64,000 nucleotides of DNA from Thalassospira sp. MCCC 1A01148. Its GTDB lineage: Bacteria > Pseudomonadota > Alphaproteobacteria > Rhodospirillales > Thalassospiraceae. The stretch lies in the NCBI RefSeq assembly GCF_001613795.1, contig NZ_LPVZ01000019.1, positions 1-64,000 on the forward strand, in the 5' to 3' direction. The notes beneath the pieces are model-generated. The model searched no databases and had not been told where the DNA came from. It saw only the letters and a list, made by a program, of their open reading frames with translations. Shown here piece after piece: positions 17,411 to 55,086 of the stretch. A program made the translations under genes and the position numbers. Within the stretch, counting starts at the first letter, position 1, and the number at the start of each line of letters is the position of its first letter.

Positions 17411-18259
17411 TTACATGCCGTCTTCGAAAGTCACGGTCACAACCCGGTTGCCCTGTTCGGCAACGCCATCTGCGGTCGAAACCGGCACATCGGATTCGCC
17501 ACTGATGCTGATTGCAAGCATGCTGGCCGGGATACCGGCATCACGCAATGCCTTGACCACCGCATCAACACGCGATTTGGCAAGCATGTCATTATACTTC
17601 GCATCGCCAGCGCGGTCAGCATAGGCAACAAGGCTGATCATTTCCGGCTCGTACTTGCCATAGGCCTCAACGATACCATCAATAACCGACATCGCCTTGT
17701 CACTGATCTCGGCACTGTCGAAACCGAAATAGACATTCATCGGAACCGGCATCGGCATGGCCGCCATCGGTGCCGGAGCAGTGTCAAGTTCGGCCTGAAC
17801 GATTGCCAGTGCCTGATAGAATGCCGCGCGGCAGTTATCGATGTCTTCCTGCTGAATGTTTTCTTCAAGTTCCTGCAACCAGCAATCGAAGCTGGACTGC
17901 GCACGCGCTGCGGCACTTGAAGCCTTCTCACGACCACCTGCATCAAGCGCTGCCATCAGATCAGCACGCGCAACTTCGACCTCAGCGCCGGACCCTTCAG
18001 GAAGCGAACGTTCCGCAATTTCCTGCGGTCCGCCATCCATGCCCATCGCTGCTGTCTTGGAACGGTTGGTGAAATAACGCGCGTCCGACCAATCGGCCTC
18101 GTCATATTCTGCCTGGGCAAGGTCGGCGTAATTCTGGTGAAGAGCGGCGTCAAAAGCCGACCCTTCGTCGGCCATTTCACGTACTCCGGGGATGTTCATA
18201 TTTGCACACGCGCTCAGAAAGGCGGCGGCGGATACAACGGCAAGCAGTTTAGCTTTCAT
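17411..18259 (-). CDS. OmpA-family lipoprotein
   Basis: This 282-residue protein has a lipoprotein signal peptide with lipobox LSAC (Cys 18). Residues 20-170 form an Ala/Glu-rich helical region. A C-terminal OmpA-like peptidoglycan-binding domain (about 175-280) begins VYFGFDSAEIS and contains the YADRAGDAKYNDMLAKSRVDAVVKAL motif. It would sit in the outer membrane facing the periplasm and contact peptidoglycan. The family's usual TDxxGxxxYN reads ADRAGDAKYN here. Confidence 0.88.
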   Translation of the reverse strand: MKAKLLAVVSAAAFLSACANMNIPGVREMADEGSAFDAALHQNYADLAQAEYDEADWSDARYFTNRSKTAAMGMDGGPQEIAERSLPEGSGAEVEVARADLMAALDAGGREKASSAAARAQSSFDCWLQELEENIQQEDIDNCRAAFYQALAIVQAELDTAPAPMAAMPMPVPMNVYFGFDSAEISDKAMSVIDGIVEAYGKYEPEMISLVAYADRAGDAKYNDMLAKSRVDAVVKALRDAGIPASMLAISISGESDVPVSTADGVAEQGNRVVTVTFEDGM

Positions 18260-18623
18260 CGGTTTTACTCCTTGGTCTGACCGACTATCAGGATCCCAGT
18301 CCCATTATTCAGGCCGAACGGCATTTGTTGCCAATGCCTTTTCATGCCTCATCCTTGCGGACCTTGTGGCCCGTCCGGTTCCATGCCGTTCTTGTTATCG
18401 ATCAGATCAAAGGACCTGACCCCGAATGTCGACCAGCCCCAAGTCCTTGGCCGATTGCCCCAAGACAACATAGATTATGGATATACTTAACCCTATCCAC
18501 AGATATATAGAAGTCAAATTCATGAAAAAAAGCAGTGGGATAGAGAAATTTCATAAACCGCTAACGTCCAATAACGATGGCAATACCGGCAAATCGAGCC
18601 CGTGAACGGTTCAAAAAGTATAA
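18260..18623. other. Gene-free stretch upstream of the OmpA-like lipoprotein
   Basis: No coding frame here is convincing. The right half is AT-rich (about 18470-18560) and contains one near-match to a DnaA box (CTATCCACA), which I do not regard as meaningful alone. A promoter for the lipoprotein gene is presumably present, but none stands out. Confidence 0.5.
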
Positions 18624-18656
18624 CGGCCCGACGCATGTTTTCCATCCGCCGGGCCG
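18624..18656 (-). terminator. Likely terminator of the AsmA-like gene
   Basis: Arms CGGCCCG/CGGGCCG (7 bp) enclose a 19-base loop, with a TTTTT run about 6 bases further on the minus strand. It lies 36 bp beyond the stop codon. The long loop makes this moderate evidence. Confidence 0.5.
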
Positions 18657-18691
18657 AATATTAGATCAACTTGGTATGGTTAACTGCGGCT

Positions 18692-19525
18692 CTATTCCGA
18701 CGACCCGCCGAACAGCCCCTTGACCGCACCGCCCAATGCGTCTGTACCTTCTTTGATCTTGGTGCCTCCGCCGCTGGCAACACCACCAACAGCACCAACG
18801 ACGCCTTTGCCCAGATCACCGACACCCTGCAACAGACCATCGACATTCAGGCTCGAAACGGCCTTGAAGACGGCGGTGTTGATCGCTGTCAGGATTTCAC
18901 CAGCAACCTGGGCCGGGGTCGCGCCACCTTCTTCCTTGCCCACATCGGTCAGATGAATTTCCGGCAGGCTGGCCGACAGCTTTTTGCCCTGCAGGAAGCC
19001 TGCCGAGACACCAACGTCACCGTTGCGGACATAGACATTGTCGATAATGATTTTGGTTCCACCTGCGGCATCATCGCCAGATGTTGCACCATCAGCGCCA
19101 CCCGCCCCGGTCGGGCCGGAAACACGTTGAACAAAGGCTTCGACGTTGCGCTGGATGGTTGCGATGTTTGAACTGCCATTGCCCAGTTCGTAAATGACAC
19201 TTGGCTGATCAACCACCACTTCGATGATACGGATCGTATCGCTGGTCAGGGTCGAACCATCAAGACGGACCGAGATATTGCCAAGCGAAAACGCATAATC
19301 GGTGTTGAACCCATCCGGATTGCCGACCACAAGCCCGTTGATCGCCGCGGTATTTTGCGTTGGTTCGATCGACACACCTTCAACCGCGACATCGGCCAGC
19401 GTCACACGCGTGCCTGCCTCTTCGATGGTGGATTTCACGATGTTATCAAGATTGACGTAAACATAGACGAGGGCCCCGACGACCAAAGCGATGATCACGG
19501 CCAGACCAATCAGTATCTTTTTCAT
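18692..19525 (-). CDS. AsmA-like membrane-anchored periplasmic protein
   Basis: This 277-residue protein has one N-terminal membrane anchor (residues 4-26) and then a segment resembling the N-terminus of AsmA-family proteins (VKSTIEEAGTRVTLADVAVEGVSI, NGLVVGNPDGF). AsmA-like proteins act in inter-membrane lipid transport or outer-membrane biogenesis. This protein is much shorter than AsmA or TamB and ends in a Gly/Val-rich amphipathic tail. A Gly/Ala/Asp linker lies at about 138-155. Family assignment is moderate; function is not established. Confidence 0.65.
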   Translation of the reverse strand: MKKILIGLAVIIALVVGALVYVYVNLDNIVKSTIEEAGTRVTLADVAVEGVSIEPTQNTAAINGLVVGNPDGFNTDYAFSLGNISVRLDGSTLTSDTIRIIEVVVDQPSVIYELGNGSSNIATIQRNVEAFVQRVSGPTGAGGADGATSGDDAAGGTKIIIDNVYVRNGDVGVSAGFLQGKKLSASLPEIHLTDVGKEEGGATPAQVAGEILTAINTAVFKAVSSLNVDGLLQGVGDLGKGVVGAVGGVASGGGTKIKEGTDALGGAVKGLFGGSSE

Positions 19526-50960: not shown

Positions 50961-51740
50961 ATGAAACTTACGTTTGCGGGGACAGGCTCGGCCTTTTGTA
51001 TGGCTGCCGACAATTTTCAGAGCAACATGGTTCTGGAAACGACCCCGTCTGGCGAAGACCGGCCGCAGCGCCTGCTGATTGACTGTGGTTCAGATGCACG
51101 CCATTCGCTGCGCAATCTTGGTTTCATGCCAAACGACTTTGATGGCGTCTATATCAGCCATCTGCATTCCGATCATATCGGGGGTCTGGAATGGATGGCC
51201 CTTGCCAATTACTTCGTCTTTGATGGTCACCGAACACAACTGTTTGCAGCCAGGGAATTGCTTGATCCGCTTTGGGAACATTCGCTGCGCGGCGGGCTGG
51301 AAACCAGCGACCATGGCAACAGCAAACTGTCCTCCTATTTCGATGTCGTTCCTTTGACACCCAAAGACGGCTTTGACTGGCAAGGCATGCATTTTGATGT
51401 CATTCCCACCCCGCATGTCGTAACACCCGAAAACACGATGTATTCCTTTGCCCTGTTCGGAACAGGGACAGAAAAGTCTTTCTTCCTGACGACAGATGCG
51501 ATTTTCAATCCCAAGGATCATATGGCGTTTTACAAAAAGGCCGATATCATCTTTCAGGATTGTGAATTGGGCCCCCGCCATTCGGGTGTACATGCCCATT
51601 ACGACGAGCTGATAACCCTGCCCGATGACGTGAAGGCAAAGATGTGGCTGTATCACTATCAGGCGTATGACAAGCCTGACGCGGTGGCAGATGGTTTTTG
51701 CGGATTCATTGACCCGGAACAAAGTTTTGATCTTGGTTGA
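50961..51740 (+). CDS. MBL-fold metal-dependent hydrolase
   Basis: This 259-residue metallo-beta-lactamase-fold protein has the HxHxDH motif in SHLHSDHIGGLEWM, preceded by LLIDCGSDARHSL. Further ligands are in TPHVVTPENT, TDAIF and HYQAYD. It resembles RNase Z-like/PhnP-like hydrolases, but lacks features allowing a substrate call. It is upstream of the split ABC/cNMP gene in the same direction; the 100-bp gap makes an operon uncertain. Confidence 0.82.
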   Translation: MKLTFAGTGSAFCMAADNFQSNMVLETTPSGEDRPQRLLIDCGSDARHSLRNLGFMPNDFDGVYISHLHSDHIGGLEWMALANYFVFDGHRTQLFAARELLDPLWEHSLRGGLETSDHGNSKLSSYFDVVPLTPKDGFDWQGMHFDVIPTPHVVTPENTMYSFALFGTGTEKSFFLTTDAIFNPKDHMAFYKKADIIFQDCELGPRHSGVHAHYDELITLPDDVKAKMWLYHYQAYDKPDAVADGFCGFIDPEQSFDLG

Positions 51741-51849
51741 TCTGACATCTGGCGCATAATCTGCACACGATGGGGTCCTGCCCCTGCCCAAACAATAAAT
51801 CGAGCAAACGGAACAAAAATGTTCCAGATTCACAAAACGGGACGTGCGA

Positions 51850-54800
51850 ATGCCAAAATCGGTTTTTGCCTATATATGGCGTCATAGCCGCCTCCAGCAG
51901 ATCATTCTGACAGTGATCACGCTGGCCTCTTTCCCGTTCCTGTATTACTCGCTCGATCTGCCCAAACAGATTGTCAACGAAGCCATCGGTGGTGCCGGTG
52001 CGCCTTATGACCTTATGGGCGTTGACCTGACCCAGATCGAATACCTGTTCGCCCTTTCAGGGGTTTTTCTGGCCCTTGTCTTCGTCAATGGCGGGTTCAA
52101 GTATTTCATCAACGTCTATCGCGGGGTAATGGCCGAACGGCTGTTGCGGCGCCTGCGCTATCTGTTGTTTGATCGTGTCTTGCGGTTTCCGGTACCGCAT
52201 TTCCGCAAAACCAGTCAGGGCGAAATTGTTTCCATGATCACCGCCGAAGCCGAACCGCTTGGCGGTTTCTTCGGCGAGGCGATTTCTCTGCCGCTTTATC
52301 AGGGCGGCATCCTGATCACGATTTCTGCCTTTATCTTTATTCAGGACCCGTTAATGGGGTTGGCGGCAGTCGCGTTCTATCCGCTGCAGGGCTACCTGAT
52401 CCCGAAACTGCAAAAACGCGTCAATCTGCTGGGTAAACAGCGCGTGCAGAACGTGCGCCGCATGTCCGAACATATCGGCGAGACCGTTGGCGGCGCGACC
52501 GATATCCGCGCCAACGAAACACAGGGTTTTGAACTGACCCATTTCACCCAGCGTCTGGGTCGAATTTTCGAAATCCGCAAGGAAATCTATTACCGAAAGT
52601 TCTTCATCAAGTTCCTCAACAACTTCATCGCCCAGATCACGCCGTTCTTCTTCTACTCCATCGGCGGCTATCTGGTGATTACCGGTGATCTGAGCTTCGG
52701 TGCACTGGTCGCAGCTCTTGCCGCCTACAAGGACATGTCTGCGCCGTGGAAGGAACTTCTGGCTTACTATCAGCGCCTTGCCGACGCACGGATCAAATAC
52801 GAACAGCTTCACGAACAGTTCGAACTCAACGATTTGGGTCCCGAACATCAGCTTGACGCCCAAACATCCGAACCGCTTGGCGGCCCGCTGGATGTCAGCG
52901 CGCTGTCCTGGACCGATGATGACGGAACGCGGGTGGTTGAAAATGTGTCCTTTAACATGCCGCTTCCCGGCAAGGCGCTTTTGATCGGCTCGTCAGACAG
53001 CGGCAAATCGCAACTCGCAAGACTTCTGGCGCGTATCCTTGATCCCAGCGGCGGACGCATCCAGTTTGCCGATGTCGATGCCACAAAACTACCTGCGGCA
53101 ATCGTTGGACAACGGCTGGCCTATGTCGGGGCGGATGCCTATCTGTTTAATGGCACCATTTCAGACAACCTTTTCTATGGCCTGAAACACCGTCCGGTCC
53201 TGCTGCAACAGGATAACGACAACCCTGCCCCAAAAGATGCCAAAAAGGAAAATGCCGTCGCCACGACCAACGCGACGCCTGATGCGAAAAAATCCTTCCC
53301 CGATCCCAAGTTTGTTGATGTGATCGAACTTTCCGATCCCGCCGAACTGCCGTGGAAACTGACCCGCGAGATGTATGACGAGATCAAGATGTCGGGCAAC
53401 ATCCCCTATGATCCGTCCGCCGAGTGGATTGATTATGTTGGGCCGGGCTTTGCATCGCGTGACGAACTGCAAAAGGAACTGATGCGCCTGCTGGAGGTTG
53501 TCGGTCTTGATCGTGACATCTACCGCATCGGTCTTTCCCGCCGGATCACCCCGGAAGAACGCCCGCAACTGGTCGAATCGGTTCTGGCAGTTCGGCCAAG
53601 GCTCAAGGAAATTTTGGCCGAACGGCAATTGTCCGACCTTGTAGAACCCTATGACTTTGAAAAGTACAATGACAACGCGCCCGTTGGCGTGAACATCATG
53701 TTCGGGACGCCATCGCGCACCGAGTTCAAGCGCTTTGACTTCCTGTCGCATCCCTATATCCAGAGAAGCCTTCGCGAAAACGGCCTTTACGACAAAATGG
53801 TCAAGATGGGGCGTGAAACCCTTGATCTGATGATCGAACTGTTTACCGGCCTGCCACCCGGCCATGAGTTCTTTGACCGTTACAGCTTTGTCTCGGCCGA
53901 TGAAATTCCCGAAGTCAAAAACATCCTGCGCCGGACCGATGGCGTGGCTGTTGATGACATGCGCAAGGAAGACCAACTGCATCTTCTTGATGTCGCCATG
54001 CATCTGACACCGGCCCGCCACCGCCTGCGCGTGATCGATGATGGTTTCCGTGAGCTTGTCCTGCAGGCCCGGCCCAAAGTCCGCGCCAACCTGCCTGACG
54101 AACTGGCTGGCTATATCGACTTCTTCGAGGCGGATGGCTATGCATCAGCCGCACCGATCCTGGATAACTTGCTGTTTGGTCGCTTCGCCTATGGCCGTGC
54201 AAATTCCGAAGAACGTGTTGGCGAAGTCCTGTTTGAAATCGCCCACGAAGGCGGCCTTTACGAAGGATTGGTGTCACTTGGCCTTGAAAGTCAGGTCGGG
54301 GTTGGTGGCAGCCGCATGTCCCAGACATTGCGTCAGAAAATCGCCCTTGTCCGGGCATTGATCAAGAACCCGGATCTTCTGGTGGTCGACGAAGGCCTTT
54401 CTGCCCTGGATCGCGAAACCCGCGAAAGCATCATCAACTACCTTACCGGCGAAACCGACCATACCAGTCTGATCTGGGTTGATGATGACGATCATGCCGG
54501 TGAAAAGTTCGACACACTGCTGCACATGTCGAACGGCAAACTGGTCAAACGCCGGAACATTGCGGACGCCACTGAAACAACCACCGAAGACGCCGAAGAC
54601 GATGCCGCAGCACTGGCAAGTGGCGACATCGATCAGGAAGTCAGGTTGCTGCGCACCATACCGCTGTTTGCCGGTCTCGATCCCAGCGTCGTCAAGCTGC
54701 TGGCCTTTACCAGTCCGCGCCTGACCTTCAAACATGGCGAGGTTCTCGTCAAACAGGGGGATCCGGGCGATGCAGCCTTTATCGTCATTTCCGGGCGTGG

Positions 54801-55086
54801 TGAAATCTGGTTGACCACCGATGAACACCAGACCCTGAAACTGCGTGATGTCCATCCCAAGGAAGTCATTGGTGAAATCGCCCTGTTGGTTGACGCGCCG
54901 CGCTCTGCCACGATCCGTGCGGTCGAGGACATGACGGTTCTGAAACTCGACAAGGCCGAATTCCTTGGCCTCGTCCGACAGGACCAGGCTGTCTCCAACC
55001 AGTTGATCCGCGTACTGGCCGAACGCCTTGATCAAACCACCAAACAGCTGACCAACCGCAACAACAACAGCAACAACAAGGAATGA
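51850..55086 (+). CDS. ABC exporter with split nucleotide-binding domain and C-terminal cyclic-nucleotide-binding domain
   Basis: This 1078-residue protein has an ABC transmembrane domain (~15-320) and Walker A GSSDSGKSQ at about 380. About 440 residues then separate Walker A from the signature region (MSQTLRQKIALVRAL, ~822); the usual distance is about 100. The inserted segment follows TISDNLFYG and ends before a similar ILDNLLFG. Walker B LLVVDEGLSALD is intact, LSGGQ reads MSQTL, and the H-loop His is replaced (WVDDDDHA). Residues ~930-1065 form a cNMP-binding fold with GEIALLVDAPRSATIRA. The start is ATG 51850; GTG 51844 is possible. Substrate unknown. Confidence 0.85.
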   Translation: MPKSVFAYIWRHSRLQQIILTVITLASFPFLYYSLDLPKQIVNEAIGGAGAPYDLMGVDLTQIEYLFALSGVFLALVFVNGGFKYFINVYRGVMAERLLRRLRYLLFDRVLRFPVPHFRKTSQGEIVSMITAEAEPLGGFFGEAISLPLYQGGILITISAFIFIQDPLMGLAAVAFYPLQGYLIPKLQKRVNLLGKQRVQNVRRMSEHIGETVGGATDIRANETQGFELTHFTQRLGRIFEIRKEIYYRKFFIKFLNNFIAQITPFFFYSIGGYLVITGDLSFGALVAALAAYKDMSAPWKELLAYYQRLADARIKYEQLHEQFELNDLGPEHQLDAQTSEPLGGPLDVSALSWTDDDGTRVVENVSFNMPLPGKALLIGSSDSGKSQLARLLARILDPSGGRIQFADVDATKLPAAIVGQRLAYVGADAYLFNGTISDNLFYGLKHRPVLLQQDNDNPAPKDAKKENAVATTNATPDAKKSFPDPKFVDVIELSDPAELPWKLTREMYDEIKMSGNIPYDPSAEWIDYVGPGFASRDELQKELMRLLEVVGLDRDIYRIGLSRRITPEERPQLVESVLAVRPRLKEILAERQLSDLVEPYDFEKYNDNAPVGVNIMFGTPSRTEFKRFDFLSHPYIQRSLRENGLYDKMVKMGRETLDLMIELFTGLPPGHEFFDRYSFVSADEIPEVKNILRRTDGVAVDDMRKEDQLHLLDVAMHLTPARHRLRVIDDGFRELVLQARPKVRANLPDELAGYIDFFEADGYASAAPILDNLLFGRFAYGRANSEERVGEVLFEIAHEGGLYEGLVSLGLESQVGVGGSRMSQTLRQKIALVRALIKNPDLLVVDEGLSALDRETRESIINYLTGETDHTSLIWVDDDDHAGEKFDTLLHMSNGKLVKRRNIADATETTTEDAEDDAAALASGDIDQEVRLLRTIPLFAGLDPSVVKLLAFTSPRLTFKHGEVLVKQGDPGDAAFIVISGRGEIWLTTDEHQTLKLRDVHPKEVIGEIALLVDAPRSATIRAVEDMTVLKLDKAEFLGLVRQDQAVSNQLIRVLAERLDQTTKQLTNRNNNSNNKE

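Follow-up and report, generated by a model that had tools for sequence, protein, structure and literature searches.

A Thalassospira ABC exporter half with a repeated segment in its ATPase domain and a terminal cyclic-nucleotide-binding domain, a candidate controlled exporter of surface glycan

Exporters of the P-glycoprotein type are ATP-binding cassette (ABC) proteins, whose ATPase domains rank among the most constrained protein modules. Here we describe a gene of the marine bacterium Thalassospira sp. MCCC 1A01148, lying in a 64,000-nucleotide stretch (positions 1 to 64,000 of contig NZ_LPVZ01000019.1, hereafter the window), which encodes a P-glycoprotein-type ABC exporter half by both sequence and fold. 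While this exporter type is already known, the protein also carries a segment repeated within its nucleotide-binding domain (NBD) and a terminal cyclic nucleotide monophosphate (cNMP) sensor, and these form the variant part. As with ABCB1, TmrAB, TM287/288 and MsbA, it has a PF00664 transmembrane domain (TMD), an NBD match and Foldseek matches at E about 1e-13 to 1e-16. In contrast to those exporters, its family has a repeated insert of ~260 residues between Q-loop and signature, has lost LSGGQ, shows eroded ATP-site residues outside the genus of the window, and has a cyclic-nucleotide-binding (CNB) domain that is either C-terminal or encoded by an adjacent gene. The architecture, repeats, conservation, motif status, gene linkage and co-occurrence presented below were computed directly.

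Three further described systems were compared; the published reports cited here were available in part, and statements about them refer to those parts. HetC of Nostoc is likewise an ABC exporter fused to a Crp-like or cNMP-type ligand domain, which in HetC is needed for function, but compared by description only it differs in having an N-terminal ligand domain, a peptidase domain, an essential ATPase residue and ppGpp binding (PMC10986499). Degenerate-site exporters share non-canonical ATP-site residues with the window family, although there it is NBS1 of a two-site transporter that is degenerate, whereas here the erosion lies in a half-transporter gene (PMC7756269). The third is the smb21252-smb21271 cluster of Sinorhizobium meliloti, where nine genes between smb21252 and smb21271 are needed for a putative surface polysaccharide, the phazolicin-protecting polysaccharide (PPP), and where the exporter is unnamed in the available part of the report (PMC10128002). 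A literature search covering few subscription journals gave, among the matches listed, no paper recognisably about the exporter family.

The gene and its features, with residues numbered from the GTG codon as residue 1, are as follows.

51850..55086, forward strand: whole gene, encoding a TMD, a split NBD with a repeated segment and a cNMP-binding domain; alternative GTG start at 51844
51850..52833, forward strand: ABC exporter TMD, residues 3-330 (Pfam ABC_membrane, Foldseek)
52987..53010, forward strand: Walker A GSSDSGKS, residues 382-389
53113..53652, forward strand: repeat unit 1, residues 424-603, with the Q-loop strand, motif TISDNLFYG and helices up to the Arg 584 helix, including a lineage-specific linker (hhalign)
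53206..53358, forward strand: linker with approximate bounds, residues ~455-505, modelled mostly at low confidence and longer than in most relatives
53359..54138, forward strand: core of the insert, conserved and helical, residues 506-765 (about 260)
53632..53988, forward strand: repeat unit 2, residues 597-715 (hhalign), with motif GVNIMFG at 53686-53706
54106..54393, forward strand: repeat unit 3 (hhalign), residues 755-850, which is native to the NBD, reaches to Walker B and has motif ILDNLLFG
54316..54330, forward strand: degenerate signature MSQTL where LSGGQ is expected, residues 825-829
54376..54393, forward strand: Walker B LLVVDE, residues 845-850
54484..54486, forward strand: switch-His position, residue 881, Asp here
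54724..54984, forward strand: cNMP-binding domain, residues 961-1047 (PF00027, E 6e-21), with the phosphate-binding cassette GEIALLVDAPRSATIRA at 54871-54921

Counted from GTG, the product of frame 51844-55086 is 1080 amino acids long, and the ATG at 51850 (Met, residue 3) is the likelier start since many homologues match from that Met; residue numbers in alignment A1 and in the first AF2 model start at the ATG and so run two lower. Pfam analysis placed ABC_membrane (PF00664) at residues 64-292, ABC_tran in two separate stretches and cNMP_binding at 961-1047, so that by Pfam and fold a PF00664 TMD is fused to an NBD as in P-glycoprotein-type exporters. The NCBIfam model ranking first was MsbA (TIGR02203), at 162 bits against a cut-off of 602. 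The model for NHLP-type or peptidase-containing exporters (TIGR03796) scored 144.7 bits against a cut-off of 853.3, and no peptidase family was found among the six Pfam rows at E <= 1. An AF2 model of the whole protein (mean pLDDT 75.6, pTM 0.66, ten-residue blocks across the insert between 63 and 91) matched P-glycoprotein (ABCB1), TmrAB and TM287/288 by Foldseek at the E-values given above, with query TM-scores of only 0.2-0.3 because large portions of the query have no counterpart.

Walker A and the signature position are separated by 443 residues, in agreement with the ~440 estimated in the initial annotation, which had described an insertion of ~300 residues inside the ATPase domain. The insertion is real, although ~50 of those residues belong to the linker, which in Thalassospira is ~40 residues longer than in most other relatives, and the conserved core is ~261 residues. 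Family counts were made on 43 members, obtained from 97 aligned rows by dropping sequences of <820 residues, two copies of the window and relatives of >=75% identity. The stretch aligned to residues 505-765 was 252-271 residues long in all 43 members and exactly 261 in 29 of them, while R584, N617, F667 and R743 were invariant in 63/63 and in 43/43 rows. Modelled alone with AF2 from 63 sequences, the insert gave a mean pLDDT of 86.3 and a pTM of 0.71 and was helical except for two short strands. None of 93 Foldseek matches of the insert to PDB reached E <= 0.001, phmmer against PDB sequences returned nothing better than E 0.025, and Pfam assigned no family to the insert of the window protein and matched DUF6576 weakly in 3 of 63 members. 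These results support a conserved domain, predicted to fold separately, that has no known fold match; structure prediction and a homologue survey were checks proposed in the initial annotation. A reading of the insert as a variable loop or assembly artefact, with the CNB domain a chance fusion, would fit the ~50-residue linker, the one part that behaves in this way, but given the near-constant core length, the invariant residues, the confident model and the presence of the insert in independent genomes we regard it as extremely improbable; for the variable loop itself, conservation of length and sequence rules it out.

With respect to distribution, a protein scan returned 56 loci, of which 55 were counted in the family; the exception, L056 from Clostridia, was a weak generic ABC match. 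Twenty-two are near relatives with 72-95% identity, one labelled Rhodospirillales and the rest Thalassospira. The remaining 33 are loci of metagenome-assembled genomes labelled Alphaproteobacteria or its groups, Proteobacteria or, in three cases (L033, L035, L040), Gammaproteobacteria. Membership of L050 and L052 is based on the TMD and first NBD part, as both end before the insert. The insert profile detected the family in 131 of 385 genomes sampled from the class and in 31 of 398 sampled from the phylum, every one of which belonged to that same class, the share of the 398 lying outside the class being unstated.

The initial annotation had also pointed to a duplicated motif bracketing the insert. 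This was borne out and can be extended, since in addition to TISDNLFYG (438-446) and ILDNLLFG (772-779) the insert itself contains a third copy, GVNIMFG (615-621), and a true internal repeat was identified by comparing profiles. Each unit consists of a strand, a [D/E]N[L/I][L/M]xG-like motif and helices, and Arg 584, 743 and 837, each in a helix near the end of a unit, were invariant in 43/43 members. By hhalign, unit 2 matched unit 3 at E 5.8e-13 (probability 98%) and unit 1 at E 1.1e-6 (91%), and the repeat claim is based on these two comparisons; the match of unit 1 to unit 3 was modest (E 8.5e-5, 60%). Against canonical NBDs, taken from four exporters of the window's own genome, unit 3 gave E 5.1e-19, unit 1 E 6.5e-10 and unit 2 a weak E 4e-4 (probability 35%). 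Three of the seven stretches fetched for this set (L114, L115, L117) were left out, by a motif filter or, for L117, because it holds no exporter. Judged from this similarity, tandem duplication of the Q-loop/helical segment of the NBD, followed by divergence, is the most likely origin of the insert.

The ATP site was then compared across the 43 members. As the initial annotation had noted, LSGGQ and the switch His are lost in the window protein, which has MSQTL and Asp 881 in their place and Ala at the Q-loop Gln; with these positions altered, its motifs are not those of a canonical ATP-hydrolysing exporter. It does retain Walker A and B, as had been claimed, but among the aligned sequences the complete set of ATP-site residues is confined to its genus. 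The Walker A Lys was kept in 29/43 members, while the following Ser/Thr was present in 5/43 and replaced by Glu or Asp in 31/43. The Q-loop Gln was found in 13/43, the Walker B Asp in 12/43, the catalytic Glu in 26/43, the switch His in 17/43 and the D-loop Asp in 41/43, and Gly occupied the two middle signature positions in 3/43 and 4/43. Lys, Ser/Thr, Asp and Glu occurred together in only two non-redundant members, the window protein and L015, both Thalassospira, and in 26 of the 97 aligned rows (the window, 22 near relatives and L072-L074 of the same genus). A test for a charge swap linking the Ser/Thr position of Walker A with the Asp position of Walker B gave no support (Fisher p 0.12).

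Mean pairwise identity was 55% in the TMD, 38% in the N-terminal NBD part, 41% in the insert and 41.5% in the C-terminal NBD part, so that the TMD, with 58 of 328 columns near-invariant, was the most conserved of the four. The opposite pattern is usual in exporters. The lower conservation of the NBD parts, the 41 of 43 members without the full four residues and the scarcity of the signature Gly would suit a pseudo-ATPase signalling or scaffold protein, in which the ABC fold would be a membrane platform assembling glycosyltransferases and reporting cNMP levels without pumping, as would the five relatives whose C-terminal GGDEF domain lacks a GGDEF-like motif and could be a regulatory add-on. 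Against such a protein stand the TMD, conserved as for a substrate path, the D-loop Asp kept in 41/43 and the full set retained in 23/23 aligned Thalassospira rows (the window and its near relatives), and we consider it somewhat unlikely.

The cNMP-binding domain (PF00027) closing the protein, predicted in the initial annotation together with its phosphate-binding motif, retains the cassette residues expected for cyclic-nucleotide binding. When 55 CNB rows near the ABC gene were aligned, the window included, the cassette GE...R[T/S/A]A was intact in 53, the exceptions being the divergent copies L100 and L101. The CNB domain was fused to the exporter in 19 rows and encoded by a separate downstream gene in 36, and a conserved tie between the two, by fusion or by adjacency, is thereby supported. 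A PF00211 cyclase gene was present in 8 of 57 ABC-bearing rows (L030, L033, L035, L038, L040, L044, L095, L102), four of which were checked with Pfam PF00211, and directly followed the CNB gene in L038, L044 and L095; cyclase genes are annotated in Rhizobium and S. meliloti loci. The window's own genome gave nine PF00211 matches, which makes a source of ligand plausible.

Two observations on the CNB domain stand apart. A GGDEF-family domain is fused C-terminally behind it in L023, L027, L028, L045 and L054; none of the five C-termini matched a loose GGDEF-like pattern, and the fusion as a source of cyclic di-GMP is unsupported. Divergent copies, one to three each, occur in three genomes of one family (G331, G154, G022; insert E 2e-13 to 6e-39), and the two of these copies whose CNB domains were aligned, L100 and L101, are those with altered cassettes.

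The neighbourhood survey comprised the same 57 ABC-bearing rows, with at least two contigs counted twice (L026/L084, L024/L088). A glycosyltransferase with a GT28 C-terminal domain, here GT28a, lay in the fetched stretch of 33 rows, and one or more of GT28a, GT4a, GT4b, a histidine phosphatase (HisP) and GT28b in 38; absences of cluster genes are soft, as the stretches are of unequal length and contig ends truncate some of them. The set GT28a-GT4a-GT4b-HisP-GT28b recurred beside the ABC gene, either co-oriented (e.g. L022) or divergent (e.g. L024), accompanied in part of the rows by DUF2334, a small methyltransferase (PF12692) and an oligopeptide-type importer. The genome of the window has the set in the same order on contig C12, unlinked to the exporter.

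GT28a is strongly conserved, with a mean column identity of 68% (12 rows). Using a presence cut-off of E < 1e-60 chosen by the analyst, we found it in 124 of 131 ABC carriers and 3 of 254 other genomes from the same 385 (Fisher p 7e-88, overstated because the genomes are related to each other). The carriers without it were G044, G071, G169, G210, G255, G266 and G283; in G210 a GT28a fragment (E 1.8e-19) lies less than 1 kb from the ABC match, and the assemblies of G255 and G071 are incomplete. Three genomes, G025, G070 and G324, had GT28a but no ABC gene. Both this co-occurrence and the recurrence of the set beside the ABC gene in two orientations argue against an ordinary ATP-driven exporter of another substrate, such as a lipid or peptide, in which the insert would be structural only and the glycan link would reflect shared ancestry of the gene sets. 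That the named models nearest to it are generic exporters, MsbA for one, that 19 of 57 rows (the four Thalassospira rows included) have no cluster gene in reach and that the genomes of the co-occurrence table are mutually related speak in its favour; overall we find it unlikely.

The S. meliloti homologue lies on pSymB, where relatives of GT28a, GT4a and GT28b precede it and a CNB gene follows, together with an FkbM methyltransferase and a LacI regulator. The pSymB cluster holds relatives of GT28a, GT4a, GT28b, GT4b and DUF2334, a cyclase, the ABC homologue and the CNB gene; no histidine phosphatase match was found in that stretch. In the S. meliloti records (L106:8412-9531, L110:15441-16590 and 17886-19005) the GT28b match, and in L110 also the GT28a match, is split over two frames. 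As smb21265 is a 'glycosyltransferase family protein' (PMC10128002) and SM_b21272 is listed as LacI family (PMC11387232), GT28a was taken as the former and the LacI gene as the latter, and gene counting that included the unannotated GT28b stretch gave the putative tags SMb21269 for the ABC gene and SMb21270 for the CNB gene, which would place the homologue within the PPP interval. Mutants in smb21252 and smb21265 had a phazolicin minimal inhibitory concentration (MIC) of 0.18 compared with 1.47 ug/mL for wild type, about eight-fold more sensitive, and insertions in the adenylate cyclase gene cyaA were strongly depleted (PMC10128002). Seven of the nine PPP genes were up-regulated under predation (PMC10315480). 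Clr-dependent control has been described for nodP2-smb21248 (PMC5498481), which is a different cluster and so provides no evidence for the PPP cluster.

Directly upstream of the exporter in the window is one further gene.

50961..51740, forward strand: metallo-beta-lactamase (MBL)-fold hydrolase gene, ending 109 bases before the ATG

An MBL-fold hydrolase gene is also upstream in Thalassospira loci L001, L012, L015 and L029, and its link to the exporter is only suggestive. The S. meliloti cluster likewise holds such a gene (L110:2707-3537), which matches a cyclic-nucleotide phosphodiesterase model far below the cut-off. Two TMD-only paralogues without an NBD were observed at G000:C20:360067-360978 (L058, L119:4993-6192) and G000:C2:29148-30041 (L059, L120), in open reading frames of 399 and 362 amino acids with 44% and 30% identity to the exporter TMD; one adjoins, by eye, a multicopper-oxidase-like gene. 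In the three loci labelled Gammaproteobacteria (L033:425-1168, L035:5083-5844, L040:5164-5916) the exporter gene is closely preceded by a stand-alone ABC ATPase gene, DrrA-like in L033 and L035 and assigned by its cluster in L040, which is a possible substitute ATPase. A 958-residue open frame at G000:C12:377007-377219 matches only the C-terminal half of ABC_tran.

Taken with the gene context, we infer export, its substrate, dimerisation and cyclic-nucleotide gating, and give an even chance to what is the most economical model, in which the protein, with its unusual ATPase domain, would export or flip a surface glycan under the control of cyclic nucleotides. The half-size exporter would presumably act as a dimer and take a surface glycan, either lipid-linked or free, across the inner membrane, this glycan being the product of the neighbouring or co-inherited cluster of two GT28-like and two GT4 enzymes, a histidine phosphatase and a DUF2334 protein. 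The Q-loop/helical segment contacts the membrane domain in exporters generally; in an NBD rebuilt by segment duplication, the tandem extra copies may form an enlarged coupling module, and the CNB domain, fused or encoded next door, could make activity dependent on cAMP or cGMP. The initial annotation had suggested a ligand-gated transporter or a new type of signalling ATPase. The conserved insert, the CNB cassette and the CNB tie are supported, and gating of transport by a ligand is a proposal. By sequence and fold the protein is of the P-glycoprotein type and not evidently of a wholly new one, and its genetic context points to surface-glycan export more than to a free-standing signalling ATPase.

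Several observations weigh against a controlled glycan exporter. The Thalassospira glycosyltransferase cluster is on another contig, the 19 rows without a cluster gene in reach include members of the genus itself, and seven further loci (L034, L042, L046, L050, L052, L053, L099), four of them cut by contig ends, have no CNB domain in reach. The S. meliloti ABC gene is placed at ~SMb21269, and the CNB gene at SMb21270, by inference from two tag anchors, and the phazolicin effect of the cyaA mutant itself is small (MIC 0.74; PMC10128002). A CNB domain need not bind cyclic nucleotides, as that of HetC was unprotected by cAMP and binds ppGpp (PMC10986499). For no family member did the analysis find data on transport, ATPase activity or ligands.

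The chief uncertainty is energetics. With 41 of 43 members lacking at least one of the Walker A Lys, Walker A Ser/Thr, Walker B Asp and catalytic Glu, most look, by motif, unable to hydrolyse ATP in the usual way, ATP-driven export is perhaps impossible for them, and a scaffold or a cNMP-gated, ATP-independent flippase are candidates for that reason. In the latter case, an ABC lineage with a decayed ATP site would have passed to control by cyclic nucleotides, with the NBD-segment repeats as a new gating module between CNB domain and TMD in a glycan flippase that does not require ATP hydrolysis; we regard this as speculative and decidedly unlikely. CFTR turned an ABC exporter into a gated pore, and a cNMP-gated flippase would parallel that change.

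This widespread, mostly single-copy family combines a repeated coupling segment with a likely second-messenger sensor and an ATP site eroded beyond a single genus, and makes a natural test of which parts of the ABC cycle can be done without. The family also supplies a candidate exporter for a rhizobial surface polysaccharide, so far uncharacterised, that gives protection from an antimicrobial peptide. If control of glycan export by cyclic nucleotides holds true, the family would provide a direct route for cAMP to act on export instead of on transcription.

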